37,575 bases of DNA, from positions 1 to 37,575 of the IMG/VR virus record IMGVR_UViG_3300028840_007509; one strand, given 5' to 3'. The first letter of the stretch is position 1; every line of letters starts with the position of its first letter. The position numbers and the translations under genes were made by a program. Shown here in pieces: positions 7,459-19,732 of the stretch. The notes below the pieces were generated by a model. It was given only the letters and a program-made list of their open reading frames with translations, ran no database searches and was not told the origin of the DNA. The stretch comes from a virus.

Positions 7459-7922
7459 ATGAGAAAGAGGACAAAGAGCAGCAAGAGCCAACAGAGCCTG
7501 AGCATGATGAATTCAGGAATCCTGATGGCACTTTCAAGCCTGGTCATCCTTTCAGGTGGCAGCCTGGTGAATCCGGAAATCCGGAAGGTCACACCAAGGG
7601 TGTGCCTCATTTCAAAAAGCTGAATGACCTCATGGTGCATCTTGCTCAACAGCCATGCACCAGGAAAGGATACAAGAAACTGACCTGGGGTGAGGCTTTT
7701 GTCAAGAGGCTCTTTGAGTTTGCTCTTGAGAAAGGCAATCCTGCCATGTGCAAGGAAATCCTTGACAGGATTGATGGCACAGTCAAGCAAGTGCATGAGG
7801 TTGAGGCAAACAGCAAGACCATTCTGACCTTTGAAATTGCCAAGCCACCAAATCCAGAGCAGCACAAGCAGAATGGTGAGAATGGCAAGCTCAATGGCTT
7901 GACCAAGAAAGGTGAGAGTTGA
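7455..7922 (+). CDS. DUF5681-domain protein, packaging-associated (155 aa)
   Basis: ATG at 7455 overlaps the upstream stop. Residues of about 20-50 carry the DUF5681 pattern, FRNPDGTFKPGHP and PGESGNPEGHTKG, in which a Gly-Asn-Pro turn is conserved. In many phages proteins with this motif sit just upstream of the large terminase and may include the small terminase subunit. Here the next 100 residues are helical (LFEFALEKGNPAMCKEILDRIDG), consistent with a helical oligomer. I therefore infer a DNA-recognition or packaging role, not proven. Confidence 0.7.
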   Translation: MNEKEDKEQQEPTEPEHDEFRNPDGTFKPGHPFRWQPGESGNPEGHTKGVPHFKKLNDLMVHLAQQPCTRKGYKKLTWGEAFVKRLFEFALEKGNPAMCKEILDRIDGTVKQVHEVEANSKTILTFEIAKPPNPEQHKQNGENGKLNGLTKKGES

Positions 7923-8261: not shown

Positions 8262-8687
8262 ATGCACACTGCATCAGACAACATGCTAATTGACTTGGCT
8301 CTGGCAACTGTTGAGGCTTTCCCTCTCAGGTCAACCAAGTATTATGACATGAGACAGTTTGACCGCATCTTGTTTGTCATGCAATATGACCAGGCAAACG
8401 GGATGCAAGGTGATGTCTCAATCATCAATGACACAGATGGTCAGGACAGTGACCCCAAGGTGCTCAAGGTTTTTCCAGGTCAAGTCATTGCAGGTGTCAA
8501 AGAGGTCTGGTGTGTAGAAATAAAAGCTGAGGATTTGGACAAAGACCATCCTTTTGTCAGACTTGACATCACCACAGCACCTGCCTTGAATGGTGGTGAC
8601 CTGACAGTGATTGCAGCTCTTCATGCAGCACATTACAAGTACAGCAACAAGCTTGATGCTGATAGAGTCCTGAAATCTTGGGAATGA
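8262..8687 (+). CDS. Member A of a four-copy small virion-like family (141 aa)
   Basis: ATG at 8262 follows GAGAAAGGGGACAAG. The protein shares four landmarks with the products at 15246, 15746 and 16314: an N-terminal SDNM/L, a DMRQFDR-type motif near residue 28 followed by a hydrophobic strand, EIKAEDL near residue 88, and a C-terminal HAAHYKY block. Length and predicted beta content are like those of small capsid-surface (decoration) proteins encoded beside major capsid genes in other phages. This copy lies 6.5 kb away from the others, just before the terminase, and is closest to member D in its C-terminus. Confidence 0.75.
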   Translation: MHTASDNMLIDLALATVEAFPLRSTKYYDMRQFDRILFVMQYDQANGMQGDVSIINDTDGQDSDPKVLKVFPGQVIAGVKEVWCVEIKAEDLDKDHPFVRLDITTAPALNGGDLTVIAALHAAHYKYSNKLDADRVLKSWE

Positions 8688-8706
8688 GAAAGAGAGACTG
8701 ACTGAG

Positions 8707-10074
8707 TTGATTGGCACACTGCCAGAAAACCAGGTAAAGGTCAAGCTGCTGCCAAAGCAGCATGATTTCCTTTTCTGCCAAGCCAAAGAAAAGATGTATG
8801 ATGGTGCCTTTGGTGCTGGTAAGAGCAGAGTGCTTGCATACAATGCTGCCATGCAAGCTGCTCTGTATCCTGGCAACCTGGTTGGTCTTTTCCGGAAAAC
8901 TCTCACAAGCCTCAAAGCCACAACCTTGAGAGTCCTGCTTGAGAAAGATGGCAACCTGCCACCTGTCCTGCCTCTTGGCTCATACAAGCACAACAAGACA
9001 GACCATGTCATTCATGTGCATGGTGGTGGTGACATATTCTATGGTGGACTTGATGACCCTCTCAGGATTGCCTCTCTCAACCTTGGCTCTGCCTTTGTGG
9101 ATGAGAGCAGAGAGATGGATGAGGATGAGTACATCATGGTGCTTGGCAGGCTGAGAAATACTGCTGACCCTGTCAGACAGCTTGGTACTGCCACCAATCC
9201 GGATGCGCCATCTCATTTTCTGTACAAGAGGTTTTACTTGCAGAAAGACAGCAGCAGAGCTGTTTTCAAGTCCAGGTCAATTGACAATTTCTTTCTGCCT
9301 CAAGACTATCTTGAAAGCCTTGGCAGATTCACTGGTCAGTACAGAGACAGATTTGTGCTTGGCAAGTGGGTTGCTTTCGAAGGTCTCATATATGACAATT
9401 TCAGCAGAGATGTCCATGTGGTGCACAGAGACCTCTCTGAATTCCAGTGGTTTCTGCTCAGTGTGGATGAAGGATACAAAGACCCGGCAGTGATTGGACT
9501 GTGGGGCATTGATTCTGACAACCGGATGCACCTGCTCAAGATGTTTTACAGAAGGCAGGTGCTGCCAACTCAATTCATTCAAGTGCTCAAGTATTATGGC
9601 ATGAGCCTGTTGCTTGAGCTCAAGGCTCAGTCCAAGAATCCAGAGCTCTTTGAGCTGCCAATGAGAATCTTTGTCTTTGACCCCAGTGCTGCTGGCTTGA
9701 GAGCTGATGCTGAGAATGAAGGTCTGGACTGCAGAGACACCAGCAATGCAGTCTTTGATGGCATTCAAGAGGTCAGAGACAAGATGGCAATTGCTGGTGA
9801 TGGCAGACCTGGTCTCACAGTTGAGCCTGGTGGTGAAGGTGTTGATGATTGGCTGACAGAGGTTGAGTCATATCACCTGGACAAGAATGAGAAACCAGCA
9901 AAAGGGCTTGACCATGCAATGGACATGACCAGATATGCTGCCATGTTTCTCAAGCTTGGTGTTGCTCAACCAAGGCTGTTGAGAGTTTCAGGCATTGGCA
10001 GTGAGCAGAAAGAAGAGCTCTCCGATGAGGAAAGAGAGCAAAAGCTTTTTGAAAGAGAGGCAGCATGGGCATAA
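8707..10074 (+). CDS. terL: Large terminase subunit (TerL), 455 aa
   Basis: TerL is the ATP-driven motor and nuclease that packages DNA into the prohead. The ATPase half shows Walker A GAFGAGKS (residues 33-40), Walker B with the catalytic Asp-Glu in SAFVDES (Asp132-Glu133), and the coupling motif GTATNPD (160-166). The nuclease half has acidic residues at the expected sites: Asp254 (SVDEGYKDP), Asp325 (FVFDPS) and Asp402/406 (DHAMDMTRY). The length is usual for the family. The start is TTG at 8707; the binding site is weak (AAGAGAG), and the frame is open upstream, so the exact start is uncertain. The 3' end overlaps the portal gene by 10 nt. Confidence 0.95.
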   Translation: MIGTLPENQVKVKLLPKQHDFLFCQAKEKMYDGAFGAGKSRVLAYNAAMQAALYPGNLVGLFRKTLTSLKATTLRVLLEKDGNLPPVLPLGSYKHNKTDHVIHVHGGGDIFYGGLDDPLRIASLNLGSAFVDESREMDEDEYIMVLGRLRNTADPVRQLGTATNPDAPSHFLYKRFYLQKDSSRAVFKSRSIDNFFLPQDYLESLGRFTGQYRDRFVLGKWVAFEGLIYDNFSRDVHVVHRDLSEFQWFLLSVDEGYKDPAVIGLWGIDSDNRMHLLKMFYRRQVLPTQFIQVLKYYGMSLLLELKAQSKNPELFELPMRIFVFDPSAAGLRADAENEGLDCRDTSNAVFDGIQEVRDKMAIAGDGRPGLTVEPGGEGVDDWLTEVESYHLDKNEKPAKGLDHAMDMTRYAAMFLKLGVAQPRLLRVSGIGSEQKEELSDEEREQKLFEREAAWA

Positions 10075-12284
10075 TTGCAGCAGTCAAGAGGATGCTCAAG
10101 CCAGTGCAGGTGCTGGTCAAGCCTGTATTCAGAAGCATCTCATATGCAAGGCTGTTTGGTCAGTCTGAGAAAATGAAAGCCGCTCAGCAGCTTGAGCACT
10201 TCCGGCACTGGATTTACATCTGCTCAACCAAGAATGCTCAGTCAGTTGCTGCTGTGCCTTTGCACCTGTATGTCACAACCAACAGAGGACAGAAAGCATA
10301 CCCCAACCTGAGAAAAGGCATTGACACCAAGCCAGTTGAAAACAAGAGACTCAAAGAGCTGCACACCAGAAGGCATCTTGCTCAGAAACTCAACAAGGCT
10401 GTCATGGTTGAAGAGGTTATTGAGCATCCTTTCCTTGACCTCTGGCAGAAAGCCAACCAGAGAGAGGATGGCTTTGAGATGCTCAGCAAGCTGCAGCTCT
10501 TTCTTGAGCTCACAGGCAATGCATATATGTGGGTGCAGAAAGACTCACTTGGTGTGCCAATTGCTCTGTGGACTCTGCAGAGCCAGTTTGTCAAGATTGT
10601 GCCTGGTGAGAATGACTTTGTCATGGGGTACTTGTATGGCACAAGTCCGGACACTCAGGTTGCTCTGACTGCAGATGAGGTTGTGCATTTCAAATTCACC
10701 AATCCTCATGATGTATTCTATGGTTTCAGTCCAATCCAGGCAGCCTTTGCAGCCATCAAGCGCAAAGAGGATTATGATGCTTATGAGGATGCCTTGCTGA
10801 CCAACAATGCAAGACCTGACTTTGCACTCAAGCACAAAGGCAAGGTCAACTCAAAGACTCTCAAGGAAATCAGAGAGAGATGGTCTCAACTGTATGGCAA
10901 AGGCAAGACAGGCTCTGTGGCAGTCCTTGAAGGTGACCTGGACATTCAGCAAATCGGATTCTCACCAAGAGACATTGCCTTTCTGAAAGGTCAGAAATTC
11001 TCAAGAGAAGAAATCCTTGGTGTGTATGGTGTGCCACTCTCAAAGGTCACAACTCAAGATGTCAACCTTGCCAATGCTGAGGTTGGTGAGGTTCAATACC
11101 AGAGAGACACGGTTGTGCCAAGGCTGAATCTTGATGAGGACAAGCTCAACCAAGACCTGGTTGGCATGTTTGATGAGAGGCTCTTTGTTGCCTTTGACAA
11201 TCCTGTGCCAGAGGACAAGCAATTCAAGCTCAGCAAGTCAGACACATACATCAAGAATGGTGTGCTCACCATCAATGAGGTCAGAGAGCAGGAAGGTCTT
11301 GAGCCAGTTGCCTGGGGCAGAACACCTTGGATGCCAATGACCATGATTCCGGTTGGCAGCTCTGGTCAACCACCTGCTCTGCCTGAGCCTGAATCTGAGA
11401 AAACAAAACAGAAAGGGGGCAGTGGTGCTGCAGAGCTGCTGCCCCCGATGCATTTCCATGTCAACCTCTTTGACCAGGATGGCAGGCTGATGCATATGAC
11501 TCAGAATGAGGTCAAGCAATCCATTCTCTGGCAAGCTGTACCTGAGATGGCAAGGATAATGAGGCAGATTTTCAGAGAGTGGAAAGAGGACATGCTCAAG
11601 CAGCTTGAGAAAATGAAAGTGGCTGTGCCTGCTGCCATCAATGCCAAAGGTGAAGGTGTGCCTGAGTGGACACCTGAGATGCTTGAGAGAGAAAAGTGGG
11701 CTGCAGAAATCAACCGAAGGATGTCAGGCGCAATCAGAAAGCAGCTTGTGCATGGTGGTCAGAGAGGCTTGACAATGGTTGGCTCTGGCATCTCTTTCAA
11801 TGTCCTCAATCCGGAAATCCAGACTTGGCTTGAGACATACACATTCCACTTTGCAGACATTACAGCCACTCACACATCGGCAGAGTTTGCAGCTCAGATG
11901 CAGGCAGGTTTCACTGCTGGTGAGGATATTCCAGAGCTCAGGTCAAGGTTGCTTGACTTCTGGGAAAACAGAATGGAAAGGTGGAAAGCTGAGCAGATTG
12001 CCAGGACTGAAAGCACCAGAGCAGCTCACCAAGGAATGTTGAAAGGCTTTGAGCAATCAAAGGTGGTGAGAGCAGTTGTCTGGGATGCACAAGCGGATGC
12101 CTGTCCATTCTGCACTGAGCTGGATGGCAGAGTTGTTGGACTTGGCACAGCTTTCTTTGAGCAAGGTCAGTCAATGGATGTGCAGGATGCAGGCACACTC
12201 AAATTTGATTATGAGCCAGTGACCTCACCACCTTTACATCCAAATTGCAGGTGCACACTGAGAGCTGAATTGAAAGGGGAGTGA
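10065..12284 (+). CDS. Portal protein fused to a MuF/SPP1 gp7-type head morphogenesis domain (739 aa)
   Basis: The first 420 residues are an HK97-type portal: EHFRHWIYICSTKNAQSVAAVPL, here split for length, then a YGFSPIQAA block, then SREEILGVYGVPLSK. The portal forms the dodecameric ring through which DNA enters. After a Pro/Gly linker near residues 435-465 comes a second module with IARTESTRAAHQG (near 646), CPFC (680-683) and a final HPNCRC (725-730), the Cys/His signature of MuF (gp7) head morphogenesis proteins, which are normally separate. No stop or frameshift separates the two parts, so this is a true fusion. ATG at 10065 lies inside the terL end. Confidence 0.9.
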   Translation: MGIIAAVKRMLKPVQVLVKPVFRSISYARLFGQSEKMKAAQQLEHFRHWIYICSTKNAQSVAAVPLHLYVTTNRGQKAYPNLRKGIDTKPVENKRLKELHTRRHLAQKLNKAVMVEEVIEHPFLDLWQKANQREDGFEMLSKLQLFLELTGNAYMWVQKDSLGVPIALWTLQSQFVKIVPGENDFVMGYLYGTSPDTQVALTADEVVHFKFTNPHDVFYGFSPIQAAFAAIKRKEDYDAYEDALLTNNARPDFALKHKGKVNSKTLKEIRERWSQLYGKGKTGSVAVLEGDLDIQQIGFSPRDIAFLKGQKFSREEILGVYGVPLSKVTTQDVNLANAEVGEVQYQRDTVVPRLNLDEDKLNQDLVGMFDERLFVAFDNPVPEDKQFKLSKSDTYIKNGVLTINEVREQEGLEPVAWGRTPWMPMTMIPVGSSGQPPALPEPESEKTKQKGGSGAAELLPPMHFHVNLFDQDGRLMHMTQNEVKQSILWQAVPEMARIMRQIFREWKEDMLKQLEKMKVAVPAAINAKGEGVPEWTPEMLEREKWAAEINRRMSGAIRKQLVHGGQRGLTMVGSGISFNVLNPEIQTWLETYTFHFADITATHTSAEFAAQMQAGFTAGEDIPELRSRLLDFWENRMERWKAEQIARTESTRAAHQGMLKGFEQSKVVRAVVWDAQADACPFCTELDGRVVGLGTAFFEQGQSMDVQDAGTLKFDYEPVTSPPLHPNCRCTLRAELKGE

Positions 12285-12288
12285 GCTG

Positions 12289-13761
12289 ATGGTTGTCACT
12301 GAAATCCTCAAGAAGGATGAGTTGCCAGAAGAGCTCAAGCTCATCCTTGAGGCAAATGGTGCTGAGACTTTTGTGAGAAAGAATGTCACACTCACAAAAG
12401 AGCCTGACCTCAAAGAAGGTGAGAGAGCTGAAATCACCTATGTGTCCACAGTGGACAGAGACAGAGATGATGAGGTCTTGCTGCCATCAGGTTGTGACCT
12501 CAGAGAATTCAAGAAAGCACCACAGGTGCTGTGGGGGCATGATTACAGAATGCCACCAATTGGCTCTGACAAGTGGATTAAGACTGACAACAAAGGCATC
12601 ATTGCCAAGACCATATATGCTGAGACTCCAAGAGCTGAGGAAATATGGCAGCTTGTCAGACAAGGACATCTCAAGACATCCTCAGTTGGTTTCATTCCTG
12701 TCAAGTGGCTCAACAAGAATGATGATGGCTGGATGACTCTCATCAAGAGAGAGGCTCAGAAAGGCAACATCATTGATGCGGAAAAGACCAAGAGAATTTA
12801 CACCAAGTGGATTCTGCTTGAGCACAGCAAGGTCAGTGTGCCTGCCAACATCAATGCTCTCACAGTGGCTGTGGCAAAAGGCAGGCTGCAGCTCTCACCT
12901 GAGACTCTGGATGACCTTGGCATTCTCAGCCTGGAAACCAAAGGTGTCATTCCTTTCAGAGACTATGGCACAGAGCCTGAAGGCTCAGCATGGGATGGTG
13001 CAGCTCAGGTCAGAGCTGCTGACACTGAGACCTTGATGAAAATCTGTGCCTGGTATGACTCAGAGAATCCGGAAGTCAAGCAAGCATACAAGTTGCCACA
13101 TCACAAGGCTGATGGTCTCAAGTGCAACTGGAAAGGCACTGCTGCTGCAATGGCAGCTTTGCTTGGTGCCAGAGGCGGGGTCAACATTCCGGATGGTGAC
13201 AAGTCTGGTGTCCATTCTCACCTGTCCAGACATTACAAGCAGTTTGACAAAGAGCCACCTGAGCTCAGAGAATACAATGAGCTTGAGCTGAAAGGTCTCT
13301 TTGGCAATGACCTCATTGAAGAGCTGCAGTGGCAAGAGACTTGTGAGAAAGAAAACTGGGATGACCTTGGTGCAGCTCTCAAGCCATACCCCAATGAGCA
13401 CAGTTGCAGGCTGCAAGACCCGGACAAGTACAGCAGGTTTGCCAGAAACAACAACCGATTTGGAGATGGCATCCATGCCATCTTTGGCAGGCGCAAGACA
13501 GATGGCAAGTCAGAGCTGCAGGCAATCAGGTTTGACAAGACCAAATTCACTGTGGCTCAGGCAAAGAAATGGTGCAAAGACCATGACCATACCTGCAAGC
13601 CATTTGAGCCTGCAACTCAGACAGGCAAAGTCATCCAGGTGCTCAGTGTCTGTGATGTCAGACCTGAGAAGAAAGCAGTCATTCAGGTGTTGAAAACACC
13701 TGAGCAGGCAATTGCTGAGGAAACTGAAAGAACTCTCAACAGAGCTCTTGGCAAAGTGTGA
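12289..13761 (+). CDS. Prohead protease with two extra C-terminal domains (490 aa)
   Basis: ATG at 12289 follows AAAGGGGAGTGAGCTG. Residues 1-200 are an HK97-type (U35/S78) maturation protease: His84 in VLWGHDYRMPPIG, Ser131/132 in LKTSSVGF, and the acidic partner plus SVPANINA near residues 178-190. This enzyme trims the capsid and scaffold during head maturation. Residues of about 225-325 form a second domain ending in LLGARGGVNIPD and HLSRHY, and residues 365-445 a third (EHSCRLQDPDKYSRFARN, then IRFDKTKFTVAQAKKW). Both extra domains are seen fused to proteases in other phages; their job is not established. Confidence 0.9.
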   Translation: MVVTEILKKDELPEELKLILEANGAETFVRKNVTLTKEPDLKEGERAEITYVSTVDRDRDDEVLLPSGCDLREFKKAPQVLWGHDYRMPPIGSDKWIKTDNKGIIAKTIYAETPRAEEIWQLVRQGHLKTSSVGFIPVKWLNKNDDGWMTLIKREAQKGNIIDAEKTKRIYTKWILLEHSKVSVPANINALTVAVAKGRLQLSPETLDDLGILSLETKGVIPFRDYGTEPEGSAWDGAAQVRAADTETLMKICAWYDSENPEVKQAYKLPHHKADGLKCNWKGTAAAMAALLGARGGVNIPDGDKSGVHSHLSRHYKQFDKEPPELREYNELELKGLFGNDLIEELQWQETCEKENWDDLGAALKPYPNEHSCRLQDPDKYSRFARNNNRFGDGIHAIFGRRKTDGKSELQAIRFDKTKFTVAQAKKWCKDHDHTCKPFEPATQTGKVIQVLSVCDVRPEKKAVIQVLKTPEQAIAEETERTLNRALGKV

Positions 13762-13808
13762 TTGGTTTGTTTTGTCCGTTTTCAACAGTCTTTTGAAAGG
13801 GGAATGAG

Positions 13809-15158
13809 TTGAAAGTCAAGCTGTTGAAGGATGTTGTGCTGGAAGGCGATGAGTACAAAGCCAACACCATTGTTGGTGTTGATGAGGTCACAGCCTCAAA
13901 GCTCATTGCTGATGGTGATGGTGAAGAGGTCAAAGAGCTTGACCCAAGCACCACTGATGATGAGACCAAGGCTGCCAAGATTGCCAAGCTTGCTGTGGAT
14001 TCCTGCTTGGCAGAATTCAGGAAAACTCAAGAGGAATTCCTGAAGAGGCTGCCAAAGGTTGAGGTTGTTGAGAATCCTCATCCTTTCAAGAGCTTTGGTC
14101 ATTTCCTTTCATGTGTCAAGCAGGCTGCAGTGACAGGTCAGAGACCTGAGCCGCTGCAGAAATACCTGGATGGCATTGAAAAGAAAAACAAGGCTCTCAG
14201 AGATGCTGGCATTGGCAAAGCAGAAGGTGATGTCATGCTGGTTGGTGATGATGCTCAAGGTGGCTTTCTGGCACCTGGTGAGCACAGAGCTGAGCTGCTG
14301 ACAACTGCTCTTGAGCAGGCTTTCTTTTACCCCAGAGCCAGATTCATTCCAATGGCAATGAGCAAGATTGACTTTCCTGCAATCTTTGACGATGACCACA
14401 CTGAAGGCAAATTCTATGGTGGTGTGGAAATCATCAGAGTTGCAGAAGGTGCTCAGAAAACTGAGAGCAAGCCAAAGACAGGTCAGATTGAGCTCAATCT
14501 GTCTGAGGTTGCTGGTCTCTGTTATGTGACCAACAATCTGCTTGAGGATAGCATGGTGAGTGTTGAGGCAATGCTCATGTCTGTCTTTGGACAGGCAATT
14601 GCCTTTGTCATTGATGACGATTGCATCAATGGCAATGGTGCCGGACAGCCTCAAGGATTCCTGCAGGCACCTTGCCTGGTGACAATCGGCAGGACAGGTG
14701 CAGGCATTGCTGCTGATGATGTCCTCAACCTCTGGCAGTCAATGTTCCCGGCATCCAAGCAGAGAGCCATCTGGATTGCCAACCATGAGACCTTCACTCA
14801 GCTTGCCAAGATGGAAATCGGTGACAGCCCGGCATGGATGCCTGCCAATGGTCTCAGTGGCAAGCCTTATGACATGCTCATGGGCAAGCCAATTTTCTTC
14901 ACAGAGAAAGCACCTGCTCTCAATGCTGGTGGTGACCTCTCTGTGGTTGACCCGGGCATGTACCTGCTTGCTGGCAAGGCAGGTCTGAATGTCAAGACTG
15001 ACACCAGTATTCACATCAGGTTTGACAAAGACCAGACTGCCTTCAGATTCACAATCAGGTATGATGGCAAGGCATGGTGGAAATCCAGCCTCAAGCCAAA
15101 GAATGCCACTCAGGATTTCAGGCTCAGTCCCTTTGTGACTCTTGGAGCTCAGCAGTAA
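13809..15158 (+). CDS. Major capsid protein, HK97 fold (449 aa)
   Basis: TTG at 13809 follows AAAGGGGAATGAG, with the long frame beginning at KVKLLKDVVL. Residues 1-45 form a small domain resembling the stand-alone protein at 17087. Residues 55-110 are helical, as in the scaffolding delta domain removed by the protease. The rest has HK97 capsid features: DAQGGFLAPGEHRAELL, then PMAMSKIDFPAI, GQIELNLSEVAG with the following YVTNNLLEDS, NGNGAGQPQGFL, and a C-terminal FRFTIRYDGK. It is the shell subunit and the natural substrate of the upstream protease. Confidence 0.95.
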   Translation: MKVKLLKDVVLEGDEYKANTIVGVDEVTASKLIADGDGEEVKELDPSTTDDETKAAKIAKLAVDSCLAEFRKTQEEFLKRLPKVEVVENPHPFKSFGHFLSCVKQAAVTGQRPEPLQKYLDGIEKKNKALRDAGIGKAEGDVMLVGDDAQGGFLAPGEHRAELLTTALEQAFFYPRARFIPMAMSKIDFPAIFDDDHTEGKFYGGVEIIRVAEGAQKTESKPKTGQIELNLSEVAGLCYVTNNLLEDSMVSVEAMLMSVFGQAIAFVIDDDCINGNGAGQPQGFLQAPCLVTIGRTGAGIAADDVLNLWQSMFPASKQRAIWIANHETFTQLAKMEIGDSPAWMPANGLSGKPYDMLMGKPIFFTEKAPALNAGGDLSVVDPGMYLLAGKAGLNVKTDTSIHIRFDKDQTAFRFTIRYDGKAWWKSSLKPKNATQDFRLSPFVTLGAQQ

Positions 15159-15179
15159 AAGTTGACCTGCGGGTGATTT

Positions 15180-15211
15180 GGCAGCTCTGTGGTGAGAGCT
15201 GCAGAGCTGCC
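15180..15211 (+). promoter_or_regulatory. Perfect 10-bp hairpin after the capsid gene
   Basis: GGCAGCTCTG (15180-15189) pairs perfectly with CAGAGCTGCC (15202-15211) across a 12-nt loop. No T-run follows, so a simple intrinsic terminator is unlikely. A position between the major capsid gene and the next cistron suggests an mRNA-processing or stability element that keeps capsid message abundant, which is inference. Confidence 0.55.
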
Positions 15212-15245
15212 TCACTCATGGTCAAACTCAGAAAGGGGGATGAGT

Positions 15246-15728
15246 TTGAATAAATACTCAGACAACCTTCAGGTCAGAAACAGTGAAACAAAAGACATGA
15301 AGGTTGAGCAGCTCATTGATGGTGAGGTTGAGGATTTCAAGCAATCACAGAATTGCATGTTTTTGCTCAAGCTGAATTCCTCAACACCTGATTCAACCGT
15401 CACCCTCCGAATTATTGAGTCCAAGGATGAGAGAGGCACTGAAGAGCCAAGGACATTGCTTGAGTCAGAAACATTTGCAATACCTGGACAGATGCCAAGG
15501 TACTATGCTTTTGATGTGAAAGCAGAGGACTTGAGCCTTGATGATGGTTATGCATATGCCAGGTTGCAGGTTGAGACAGCAGGTGTCCTTGCTTTGCCTG
15601 TGCTTGCAACAATACTGAACATCTCAAATGCAAGACACAGGAAATCAGAAGGTGCTGGACTCTTGTATGATGGTGTTTTTGACAGGCTGCATCTGACTGC
15701 ACCTGAAGAGGCACCACCAATTGTCTGA
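15246..15728 (+). CDS. Member B of the four-copy small virion-like family (160 aa)
   Basis: I start at TTG 15246 (GAAAGGGGGATGAG upstream) because this aligns its NKYSDNL with the starts of the other three members; an ATG at 15240 in the same frame is possible. Landmarks are SDNL, VEDFKQS, FDVKAEDL and a C-terminal RHRKSEGAG followed by VFDRLHLT. The last block is shared with member C. It lies directly behind the major capsid gene, so a capsid-surface or auxiliary head protein is the best guess. Confidence 0.75.
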   Translation: MNKYSDNLQVRNSETKDMKVEQLIDGEVEDFKQSQNCMFLLKLNSSTPDSTVTLRIIESKDERGTEEPRTLLESETFAIPGQMPRYYAFDVKAEDLSLDDGYAYARLQVETAGVLALPVLATILNISNARHRKSEGAGLLYDGVFDRLHLTAPEEAPPIV

Positions 15729-15745
15729 TTGAAAGGGGGGTGAGT

Positions 15746-16234
15746 TTGAACAAGTACAGTGACCACCTGAGTGTGGATGTGCATCCCACCACTGACTTGT
15801 CACCACTTGCCGATTACAACACCAGAGAAGTTGACATGAGGCAGCATGACAAAGCTCTGCTGGTGGTGATGGTTGATGTCTGGGAGTGGGGCACAGTTGG
15901 TCTTGACCTTGCCATCATGGAAAGAAATGATGATATGCCACCAGACACAGGACTGTTGCTGTTTGGTGTGTCCAACATTCCTTTCAATGCACCTGGAATA
16001 TATCACATCTGTTTTGACCTCAAGGCAGAAGATATTTCCTTGAATGATGGCATGACCACAGTTTTTGCCAAGCTTGCCAAAAATGGCATAGTGGAATTTG
16101 AAAACCGGGTCACACCTGTCTGGATTCTGGATGATGACCATCACAAGTTTGAAGGCTCAGGGCCCTACTGTGAGGTTTTTGACAGGCTGCACTTGACACC
16201 TGAAGGCAACTGTGGTGGCGGGGGCCCGATATAG
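15746..16234 (+). CDS. Member C of the four-copy small virion-like family (162 aa)
   Basis: TTG at 15746 (GAAAGGGGGGTGAG upstream) gives the same NKYSD start as member B; the two upstream regions are nearly identical, showing a duplication that included the ribosome binding site. Landmarks are SDHL, VDMRQHDK, FDLKAEDI and HHKFEGSG then VFDRLHLT. It ends in a short Gly-rich tail (CGGGGPI). B and C are the most similar pair at both termini, while their centres have diverged strongly. Confidence 0.75.
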   Translation: MNKYSDHLSVDVHPTTDLSPLADYNTREVDMRQHDKALLVVMVDVWEWGTVGLDLAIMERNDDMPPDTGLLLFGVSNIPFNAPGIYHICFDLKAEDISLNDGMTTVFAKLAKNGIVEFENRVTPVWILDDDHHKFEGSGPYCEVFDRLHLTPEGNCGGGGPI

Positions 16235-16313
16235 TCAACTGAAACAAGGAAAGGATTGAGAAAGAAAGTTGAGCTGATTCCAATGTGTACTTTTACAGAA
16301 AGGGGATGTCAGG

Positions 16314-16745
16314 ATGCATAACATCTCTGACAACATGCTGGTTGATGTGGCAGCAGATACTGCTGTCCTCAATGGCGCAACTCAGAATGCTGCCTGGTTT
16401 GACATGAAAGAGTTTGACAGAGCTACTTTCGTAGTCAGGCTTGGCAGCAAGGTTGCCACACCTGATGTGGACATTGAGATGCTGGCTGCAGAGGATGACA
16501 TCGGCACCAATGATGAGACTCTCAAGACTGCAGTGCTTGGTGACCCTGATGCAGGCATTTATGCCTTTGAATTCAAGGCAGAGGATTTGCCGGAAGGCAA
16601 GCCTTATGTCAGCATCAGTGTCATTGAAAAGAGCATTCCCAATGGTGACAGCATCACATCAACTGTGATTGCTGCTCTGCATGGTGCTCACCACAAGTTT
16701 GAAAACAAGCTTGGTGCAGTGGCTGTGTACAAGACTTGGGAATAA
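16314..16745 (+). CDS. Member D of the four-copy small virion-like family (143 aa)
   Basis: ATG at 16314 follows AGAAAGGGGATGTCAGG. It is closest to member A: HNISDNMLVD against HTASDNMLID, FDMKEFDRATFVV, EFKAEDL, and AALHGAHHKFENKL against AALHAAHYKYSNKL, both ending in KTWE/KSWE. The pairs A/D and B/C therefore define two subgroups, suggesting one old and one or more recent duplications. A virion surface role is inferred from position only. Confidence 0.75.
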   Translation: MHNISDNMLVDVAADTAVLNGATQNAAWFDMKEFDRATFVVRLGSKVATPDVDIEMLAAEDDIGTNDETLKTAVLGDPDAGIYAFEFKAEDLPEGKPYVSISVIEKSIPNGDSITSTVIAALHGAHHKFENKLGAVAVYKTWE

Positions 16746-17305: not shown

Positions 17306-18163
17306 ATGGCAACTGGTGACCTGACCTCTCTTGACCTGGTCAAGACTTACATGGGGCTCACTGGCACTGACAAAGATGACCTCATCAATCAGCTCATTCC
17401 TCAGCTCTCAGCCTCAATTGCAAGGTACTGTGACAGAGAGTTTTACCTGCATGATTATCGTGATTTCATATACACTGAAGGTGGATGCATCTTGTACCTG
17501 CCTCAGTATCCTGTCACAAAAGTCAAGAGGCTTGTGAGAGCTCTGATTGAAGTGGTCAAGGTCAAGACCACAAGAGCTGGCTGCAAAGGTGCCTCTGTCC
17601 AGGTCATCAATGGTGAGGTCTTGCTGCAGCAGTGGGGTGACAATGAGGACTCAGGCAGCATTGATTTGGCAACTGAGACCACTCTGGCTGCAGTGAAAGC
17701 TGCAATTGAGGCTCTTGTTGGTCAGGCTTGGCAGGCAACCATTGTATCAGGATATGAGAATCACCTGAGTGCTGACCTGGTTGAGATGCCTGGTCAGCCT
17801 GCTCTCAGTCCTGATTATGCAGAGCTGCTGATTCCGGACTATGACTCAACCATATATGACCACATCCTGGATGACTCCAATGGCAGAGTCAAGAGCAGGT
17901 CAGGCTTTCCGGATGGCAGAATCTTTGCAGAGTGGCAGGCAGGTTATGGTGACACAGTTGATGACATGCCTGCTGACCTGGTTGGTCTTGCCACTGCCAT
18001 TGTTGCTGATGCTGTCAGAGAATCCGCATCTGACAAAGGCATGAAATCTGAAAGGCTTGGTGATTATCAATACACCAAGTTTGACACTCAGGTGCAGGCT
18101 GATGAGTTTGTGGTTGAAAGATACTCAGAGCAGCTTGCAAGATTCAGGAGAGTGAGCCTGTAA
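17306..18163 (+). CDS. Head-tail connector (gp6-like adaptor), 285 aa
   Basis: ATG at 17306 follows AAGGGGGCAGC. The N-terminal half shows the connector pattern: LDLVKTYMGL, DDLINQLIPQLSASIARYCDR and LPQYPVTKVKRLV. Family members are all-helical rings that attach below the portal. A Gly-rich insertion (residues of about 90-190) makes this protein longer than the usual 100-200 residues, while the C-terminal helices (LVGLATAIVADAVRESASD, YSEQLARFRRV) return to the family pattern. Its stop overlaps the next ATG (TAATG). Confidence 0.8.
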   Translation: MATGDLTSLDLVKTYMGLTGTDKDDLINQLIPQLSASIARYCDREFYLHDYRDFIYTEGGCILYLPQYPVTKVKRLVRALIEVVKVKTTRAGCKGASVQVINGEVLLQQWGDNEDSGSIDLATETTLAAVKAAIEALVGQAWQATIVSGYENHLSADLVEMPGQPALSPDYAELLIPDYDSTIYDHILDDSNGRVKSRSGFPDGRIFAEWQAGYGDTVDDMPADLVGLATAIVADAVRESASDKGMKSERLGDYQYTKFDTQVQADEFVVERYSEQLARFRRVSL

Positions 18164-18489
18164 TGGCAATACAAGACCTATTTGAAACAACTGCAACCAT
18201 CCAGAGAGCCACTGAAGGTCAGGATGCAGCAGGTGGTGTCACAGAGGTCTGGGCTGACCTCATTGTTGATGTGCCTTGCAGCATTCAGGCACAATCAGCC
18301 TCAGAAAGAGCTGCATACAAAAAGCTTGAGGTTGTTGCAGGTTTCAATATGTTCATCTTGCCACAGACTGAGGATGTCACTGAGAAAGACAGAGTGGTGT
18401 GGAATGGCAGAACATTTGACATTATCTTTGTTGACAAGTGGCACCTGATTTCTCACCACTGGAAATTGGTGCTTGAAGAGAGAAAGTGA
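18163..18489 (+). CDS. Head closure / head-tail joining protein (108 aa)
   Basis: Size, order and content match the SPP1 gp16/HK97 gp7 joining family: a beta-rich protein with VTEVWADL, then VPCSIQAQSASER, then FNMFILPQTEDVTEKDRVVW and GRTFDIIFVD. It closes the connector after packaging. The start codon shares a base with the upstream stop, and the stop overlaps the next gene (TGATG). Confidence 0.8.
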   Translation: MAIQDLFETTATIQRATEGQDAAGGVTEVWADLIVDVPCSIQAQSASERAAYKKLEVVAGFNMFILPQTEDVTEKDRVVWNGRTFDIIFVDKWHLISHHWKLVLEERK

Positions 18490-18905
18490 TGGCAGGCAAG
18501 CTGAAATGGTTTGGCAGAGAGGTTGTGGCAAAGATTGATGCCAAGCAAGAGACTGCTTTGACCAAAGGCAGCATCATGATAATCAACAAGGCAAAAGAGT
18601 TGATGAGAGAGCCAAAGACAGGTGAGGATTACAGAGGCAAAGGCAAGAAAGGAAAGAAAAGCACAAGCCAATTCAAAACAAGAAGCTCTGCACCTGGTGA
18701 GGCACCTGCTGTGCAGACAGGCAGACTGAGAGCCTCTCTTGCATTTGAGCAACCAAAAAAACTCACCAGGCTGATTGGCAGTAACCTCAAGAAAGCTTTT
18801 TTCCTTGAGAAAGGCACTGCCAAAATGAAAGCAAGACCATTCTTGAGACCTGCATATAGACGGACAAGAGCAAGGATTGCAAGGCTCTTGAGGGGCGCAA
18901 TTTGA
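18489..18905 (+). CDS. HK97 gp10-like neck/tail completion protein (138 aa)
   Basis: ATG at 18489 overlaps the previous stop; an in-frame GTG is three bases upstream. The family features are a helical start (IMIINKAKELMRE), a central loop SSAPGEAPAVQTGRLRASL containing the usual PG-P-TG-LR-S pattern, and LEKGTAKMKARPFLRPAY, the conserved 'EfGT..m.aRPFlrPA' motif. It sits at the head-tail interface. A TTGA overlap joins it to the next gene. Confidence 0.88.
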   Translation: MAGKLKWFGREVVAKIDAKQETALTKGSIMIINKAKELMREPKTGEDYRGKGKKGKKSTSQFKTRSSAPGEAPAVQTGRLRASLAFEQPKKLTRLIGSNLKKAFFLEKGTAKMKARPFLRPAYRRTRARIARLLRGAI

Positions 18906-19312
18906 AAGCAATTGAAGAGGCTATTTTCACAAGATACAATCAACCAGCAGGTGCTGCATTCAAGGCTGTCACACCTGGTGGCTTGTACAATACAGAGGCA
19001 CCACAGAAAGCTCAGGACAATGGTGCATATGCAGTTTTCACTCTCATCGATGACAGTCCTGAGTACACTTTCACATCCGAAGGTGAGGATGTCCTGGTGC
19101 AATTCACACTGGTGAGTTATGACAGGTCTGTGATTGATGTGAATGATATGTTTGAGCAGCTCAAAGGCTTTCTGGACTTTGTCAAGCTCTCTGTGGCAGG
19201 ATATGACTCAATTGAGTGCAGAAGGCAACCAGGTGCCAACAAGGTCAGAGACCCAGAGGCAGATGCCTGGTTGTACATGGTTGATTATCGGATTCTTGTG
19301 CAGAAACAGTAA
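18902..19312 (+). CDS. Tail terminator protein (136 aa)
   Basis: TTG at 18902 overlaps the preceding stop as TTGA. The protein has the order and size of DUF3168-like tail terminators: an N-terminal helix (EEAIFTRYNQ), then YAVFTLIDDSPEYTF, a beta strand (VLVQFTLVSYDRS) and a helix after it, and a C-terminal strand pair (WLYMVDYRILVQ). It caps the tail tube and joins it to the neck. Confidence 0.75.
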   Translation: MKAIEEAIFTRYNQPAGAAFKAVTPGGLYNTEAPQKAQDNGAYAVFTLIDDSPEYTFTSEGEDVLVQFTLVSYDRSVIDVNDMFEQLKGFLDFVKLSVAGYDSIECRRQPGANKVRDPEADAWLYMVDYRILVQKQ

Positions 19313-19330
19313 TTGTGAAGGGGGTGCTGA

Positions 19331-19732
19331 ATGCACATCACTGGTGTTGAGGGAAAGGTGACCTCAGAAGCTCAGGAAATACTGGGCATTGACAACTGGT
19401 CTGCAGACCTCTCTGCAGATTCGATTGAGGTCACAGATTATCAGAGTGACGGGTGGAAAGAGAAAATTGCTGGCAACAAAGAGTGCACTGGCACCTTTGA
19501 AGGCAACTGGGAAACAGCTCAGGACATTTCCTCTGACCCACCAAACCTGAATGAAGGTGAAATCGTCACTCTTGAGCTCTTTGTTGAGGATACCACTGCA
19601 CCAATTCAAAAGCTCACTTTTGATGCTCTCATCACAAATGTGAATATCGCTGTGCCTCAGTCTGACAAAGTCAGGCTGACTGTGACCTTTGAGAGCACAG
19701 GTGTTGTGACCAAGGAATTCTCAACTCCGTAA
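19331..19732 (+). CDS. Major tail (tube) protein (133 aa)
   Basis: ATG at 19331 follows AAGGGGGTGCTGA. The protein is all-beta with ADSIEVTDYQSDGWKEKIAG, EGNWETAQ, EGEIVTLELFVE and VRLTVTFESTG, the strand order and length of small tail tube subunits that share the viral jelly/tube fold. Its place between the tail terminator and the chaperone genes is the standard siphovirus order. Confidence 0.85.
   Translation: MHITGVEGKVTSEAQEILGIDNWSADLSADSIEVTDYQSDGWKEKIAGNKECTGTFEGNWETAQDISSDPPNLNEGEIVTLELFVEDTTAPIQKLTFDALITNVNIAVPQSDKVRLTVTFESTGVVTKEFSTP

Follow-up and report, generated by a model that had tools for sequence, protein, structure and literature searches.

Four paralogous genes for putative capsid-surface proteins in an uncultured tailed phage

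The stretch of DNA analysed here, referred to as the window, is an IMG/VR virus record of 37,575 nucleotides from an uncultured tailed phage. On its + strand the gene order is a DUF5681 terminase small-subunit-like gene, a gene at 7919, copy A of the family described here, the terminase large subunit (TerL), a portal-MuF fusion, the protease, the capsid gene and copies B, C and D. Downstream of D follow two small basic proteins and then the head-tail adaptor, closure, neck, terminator and tube genes. The features needed below are:

8262..8687, + strand: copy A, 141 aa, putative jelly-roll cement-like paralog (blastp to D 2e-24, tree, ribosome binding site GAAAGGGG)
8707..10074, + strand: terminase large subunit (PF04466, 6.8e-14), directly downstream of A
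10065..12284, + strand: portal protein fused to a Mu F-like domain (PF04860, 4e-57; PF04233, 3.6e-9)
12289..13761, + strand: head maturation protease with a C-terminal extension (PF04586, 3.5e-7; phrog_80)
13809..15158, + strand: HK97-type major capsid protein (PF05065, E 5e-40; phrog_10, 2e-31), directly upstream of B, C and D
15246..15728, + strand: copy B, 160 aa, TTG start, predicted jelly-roll paralog with a C-terminal extension (AlphaFold2 model, PDB neighbours, B/C clade 100/99)
15746..16234, + strand: copy C, 162 aa, TTG start, sister of B (blastp to B 9e-17, to D 2e-8)
16314..16745, + strand: copy D, 143 aa, of the four the nearest to the single-copy orthologs in related phages (AlphaFold2 model, PDB neighbours, tree)
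17306..19732, + strand: head-tail adaptor, head closure, neck, tail terminator and tail tube genes

The first-pass annotation described four related small proteins, three encoded behind the capsid gene and one before the terminase, and the gene order agrees with this. Copy A is set apart from the capsid gene: it is flanked by the terminase small-subunit-like genes and by TerL.

The four products are true paralogs and form one homologous family. In pairwise BLASTP, A and D are 36% identical (E 2e-24), B and C 34% (9e-17), C and D 30% (2e-8) and B and D 26% (3e-6). Smith-Waterman z-scores are 33 (AD), 26 (BC), 15 (CD), 12 (BD), 9.7 (AC) and 7.1 (AB), so that all six pairs lie 7 to 33 standard deviations above their shuffles; with 1000 shuffles per pair, none reached the observed score. 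The pairing of A with D and of B with C that had been proposed earlier stands. A search of the whole record gave no fifth copy, so the family has exactly four members in the window.

For B and C there are in-frame start candidates two codons further 5', ATG at 15240 and GTG at 15740, but these abut the Shine-Dalgarno run GAAAGGGG, while TTG at 15246 and 15746 has normal spacing. The TTG starts also align with the starts of A and D, and all four products then begin M-x-x-x-S-D-(N/H). We prefer the TTG starts because of this spacing and alignment. TTG starts are found in several window genes, including the capsid gene.

The ribosome binding site is not a special link between B and C, as had been suggested. 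The run GAAAGGGG occurs at 11 sites in the window against 0.35 expected, on both strands, and precedes all four copies, the protease, the capsid gene and other genes; it is a genome-wide feature and was discarded as evidence of B/C kinship. Further, promoter and terminator signals for a separate B-D transcription unit did not rise clearly above shuffles.

When the four copies are aligned, the invariant columns include M1, SD, D30, KAED, H126 and K128. The conserved blocks are the N-terminus, a DM(K/R)(E/Q)xD strand, a KAED strand and an HxKxEN segment, and they are the same in multi-copy and single-copy phages. That the centres have diverged almost completely, as first described, is therefore overstated: the DM(K/R)(E/Q)xD and KAED strands are central and among the best conserved parts, while the remainder is indeed variable. 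Synonymous sites between the copies are near saturation, and the conservation of the ends therefore points to selection at the protein level. Between D and orthologs from phages whose capsid proteins are 57-60% identical, identity is 42-44%; cement orthologs thus appear to evolve fast anyway.

The copies seem to be old, because in B/C and B/D the use of the same codon at identical residues is close to what codon usage predicts. Recent gene conversion of the B and C ends was considered and rejected on the same grounds (18 of 50 identical residues share a codon, 21.5 expected). For A/D there is a modest excess, 26 of 45 against 19.2 expected.

Relatives were reached only through an alignment of capsid proteins and through the terminase. 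Direct scans of IMG/VR with the four-row alignment or with D alone gave no match, a scan with the capsid protein alone gave no relatives, and tblastn searches of a phage collection with D and with the homologs from L032 and L035 gave no match. TerL led to four distinct close relatives at 65-71% identity, namely L052, L053 (nearly identical to L054), L055 and L056 (nearly identical to L057), and a broader scan with the terminase yielded no additional close relative.

The search for the family in related phages, suggested by the first-pass annotation, gave homologs behind the capsid gene in these four and at ten further loci. In L052, L053, L055 and L056 no more than about 140 bases separate the end of the capsid-protein match from the start of a homolog, and the same spacing is seen in L026, L027, L028, L031, L032, L033, L034, L035, L036 and L121; among these, L026, L028, L031 and L032 are nearly identical to each other. 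L121, a Rhodobacteraceae MAG found by its capsid protein, holds a distant family member, and in L022 a member lies 1.1 kb downstream of the capsid gene. Adjacency to the major capsid gene is thus shared by B, C, D and the homologs, with copy A as the exception: a copy before TerL is unique to the window among the relatives found and is absent from the fragment records of the close ones. In a Planctomycetota MAG (L120, from 11167 on) a related capsid gene has no detected cement homolog behind it, from which the cement gene seems optional in the wider group.

At the far edge of the family, Streptomyces phage Dagobah encodes a protein of 156 aa behind its capsid gene (L005 7824-8294). The match is marginal (E 0.007-0.02) and confined to the part of the family from KAED to the C-terminus; this gene and L010 8876-9373 may be very distant members.

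Copy number differs among the close relatives. One copy is found in L052, L053 and L056, and four in tandem, at 7841, 8353, 9115 and 9742, in L055; searches of the whole records agree, although these records are fragments and the genomes may hold further copies elsewhere. In the tree B and C form one clade (support 100/99), and D is placed next to the L052 and L055 copies. The L052 gene pairs with the L055 copy at 8353 (96/94), while the other three L055 copies form a clade of their own (97/93). Given the B/C clade, the clade of three L055 copies and the placement of D with single-copy genes, the simplest account would be at least two separate expansions, by which the window phage and L055 each reached four copies. 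The deeper forks have moderate support (82-92), and neither A nor B/C is firmly placed.

No match to the family was found in Pfam, NCBIfam or the annotated PHROG families, and a sequence search of the PDB gave nothing credible. The nearest family is phrog_28483, of unknown function, which 9 of the 14 aligned family members match (best 2.9e-46). Single matches include the L056 ortholog (7e-13) and L032 (6.7e-10), while A-D themselves have none in single-sequence scans.

In addition, the family profile was compared with twelve Bbp16-type cement proteins. The match is in register with P 2.5e-4, whereas seven control families gave P values of 0.04 or more; the hhalign probability is 43%, or 5.7% with the profile of the ten-phage core alone, and we regard this sequence match as suggestive only. 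Two family members match phrog_5707 (best 0.0034), which with phrog_427 makes up the Bbp16 families. Bbp16 of Bordetella phage BPP-1 (3j4u) and gp42 of Carin1 (8cjz) are jelly-roll proteins of about 130-140 aa encoded directly behind the capsid gene, and the annotation of the Carin1 gene gives it as a cement protein validated by structure. Hallmarks of this type are a jelly-roll of two four-stranded sheets and a dimer at the two-fold axes formed by F-strand pairing. However, both phages are podoviruses with one copy each, the BPP-1 capsid protein has a permuted topology, and neither cement protein has a significant direct sequence match to A-D.

The fold was predicted with AlphaFold2 for D (4 sequences, pLDDT 70, pTM 0.66) and B (14 sequences, pLDDT 74.5, pTM 0.70). 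In both models nine strands follow one another in the same order and form a jelly-roll-like beta-sandwich, with a C-terminal helix of low confidence. Structure prediction, which the first-pass annotation had proposed for all four, thus gives a common fold for these two copies.

Four capsid-surface proteins of tailed viruses are among the structural neighbours (VIA-align). These are the BPP-1 cement protein (3j4u_H to B, Z 8.7, rmsd 3.0, 110 residues), the Carin1 capsid chain 8cjz_A (Z 8.1, rmsd 3.3, 116 residues), the cement protein of Helicobacter phage KHP40 (7dou_4 to D, Z 8.4, rmsd 3.4, 110 residues) and the HFTV1 turret (8qpg_TD to D, Z 8.2, rmsd 4.0, 106 residues). The KHP40 protein, which is trimeric, is a beta-sandwich of the size of D but only 6% identical in sequence. 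The HFTV1 chain has a fold like D and 14% identity over 106 residues; judging from its length it would be the turret base protein, which is located on hexamers and has a second turret protein attached to it (PMC12494034).

It should be kept in mind that GOLD domains, IBDV VP2 and ephrin receptors rank equally high or higher among the neighbours of D and B. As the cement matches do not exceed those to unrelated jelly-rolls, the fold alone does not decide the function. Lambda gpD and YSD1_16 are decoration proteins with the capsid-surface role proposed here for A-D but with a different fold, the beta-tulip (PMC7385642); gpD/TW1-type proteins are absent among the fold matches listed.

Position and fold together make the capsid surface the best reading. 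We propose, with a probability of about 0.72, that A-D are cement or decoration proteins on an HK97-type capsid, with D as the basic protein and A, B and C added to it. The initial description as virion-like, capsid-surface proteins thus gains from the position behind the capsid gene and from the likeness to cement proteins, while presence in the virion and capsid binding are what we infer from these. The proteins would bind the outside of the capsid, as the BPP-1 and Carin1 cement proteins do, presumably by means of the N-terminus and the DMREF and KAED segments, which are conserved. The conserved blocks would then, by analogy, face the capsid or neighbouring subunits and the variable stretches would be exposed. 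The basic cement or decoration protein would be D or its single-copy ancestor. B/C and A would stem from old duplications and may now occupy other capsid positions, be mixed with D or form a second layer. That relatives have a single copy suggests that the extra copies are not essential, and there may be some division of labour between the copies.

How the labour would be divided can be seen in two ways within this capsid-surface reading, and the evidence does not decide whether the copies serve site specialisation or surface display. One, quite plausible though somewhat short of an even chance, is that the copies are specialised for position, forming mixed dimers or trimers or occupying non-equivalent two-fold, three-fold and hexamer-centre sites, with the capsid cemented by all of them together. 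Among the PDB neighbours, the BPP-1 protein is a two-fold dimer, the KHP40 protein a trimer and the HFTV1 protein a turret on hexamers, and known decoration proteins discriminate between such sites (PMC7602432). However, the one-copy relatives should build a very similar capsid: the L052 capsid protein is 57% identical, with one copy in the fragment.

The other, in our view improbable, is that the exposed faces have diversified to bind different glycans of hosts or the environment while capsid binding stayed constant. The conserved N-terminus, DMREF and KAED beside a variable remainder, the lectin and carbohydrate-binding folds among the neighbours, and the separate expansions in two phages would fit such alternative ligands. 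Yet the pattern of conserved and variable parts is identical in single-copy relatives, the lectin matches are generic jelly-roll matches, and the near-saturation of synonymous sites precludes a test for positive selection.

It is still less probable that only D is structural and that A, B and C are non-virion proteins duplicated from it. Copy A does lie outside the capsid-connector block, and extra copies are missing in three of the four close relatives, but A, B and C retain the family-wide conserved segments and strong ribosome binding sites like those of the capsid and protease genes, and B and C have the capsid gene on one side and D on the other. A role as minor or connector proteins at the head-tail junction, which the location of B-D between capsid and adaptor genes might suggest, is very improbable, since the usual connector slots are all assigned to other genes (17306..19732) and the structural neighbours of D and B are not connectors.

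What makes the family interesting is that a gene for a putative capsid-surface protein was multiplied repeatedly; this points to gene duplication as a means by which some phages may diversify the head surface. In the open-access literature surveyed, each phage encodes its decoration proteins in a single gene or in a few unrelated ones, and we found no clear precedent there for paralogous ones, although absence from that literature is not proof. A bolder version, which we hold to be doubtful, is that this lineage repeatedly multiplies a jelly-roll surface protein and that one particle displays four different ones on a shared capsid-binding frame; if so, phages could arrive at a mosaic, multi-specific head surface by duplicating genes. 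Two related phages that reached four copies separately, together with others that have one, form a natural series for studying the role of extra copies in stability, site specialisation or surface display. In addition, the unannotated PHROG 28483 gains a hypothesis for its function.

Some observations concern the neighbouring genes. The portal and the Mu F-like head morphogenesis domain form one open reading frame (10065-12284), which aligns over its full length in the close relatives. The protease (12289-13761) has a long C-terminal extension with an RFDK...AKKWxKDH-type segment, and its middle is absent from the alignment in L052 and L055. Further, between TerL and the portal gene L056 (4141-7703) and L053 (7219-9168) carry 2 to 3.5 kb of extra DNA that is absent from the window.
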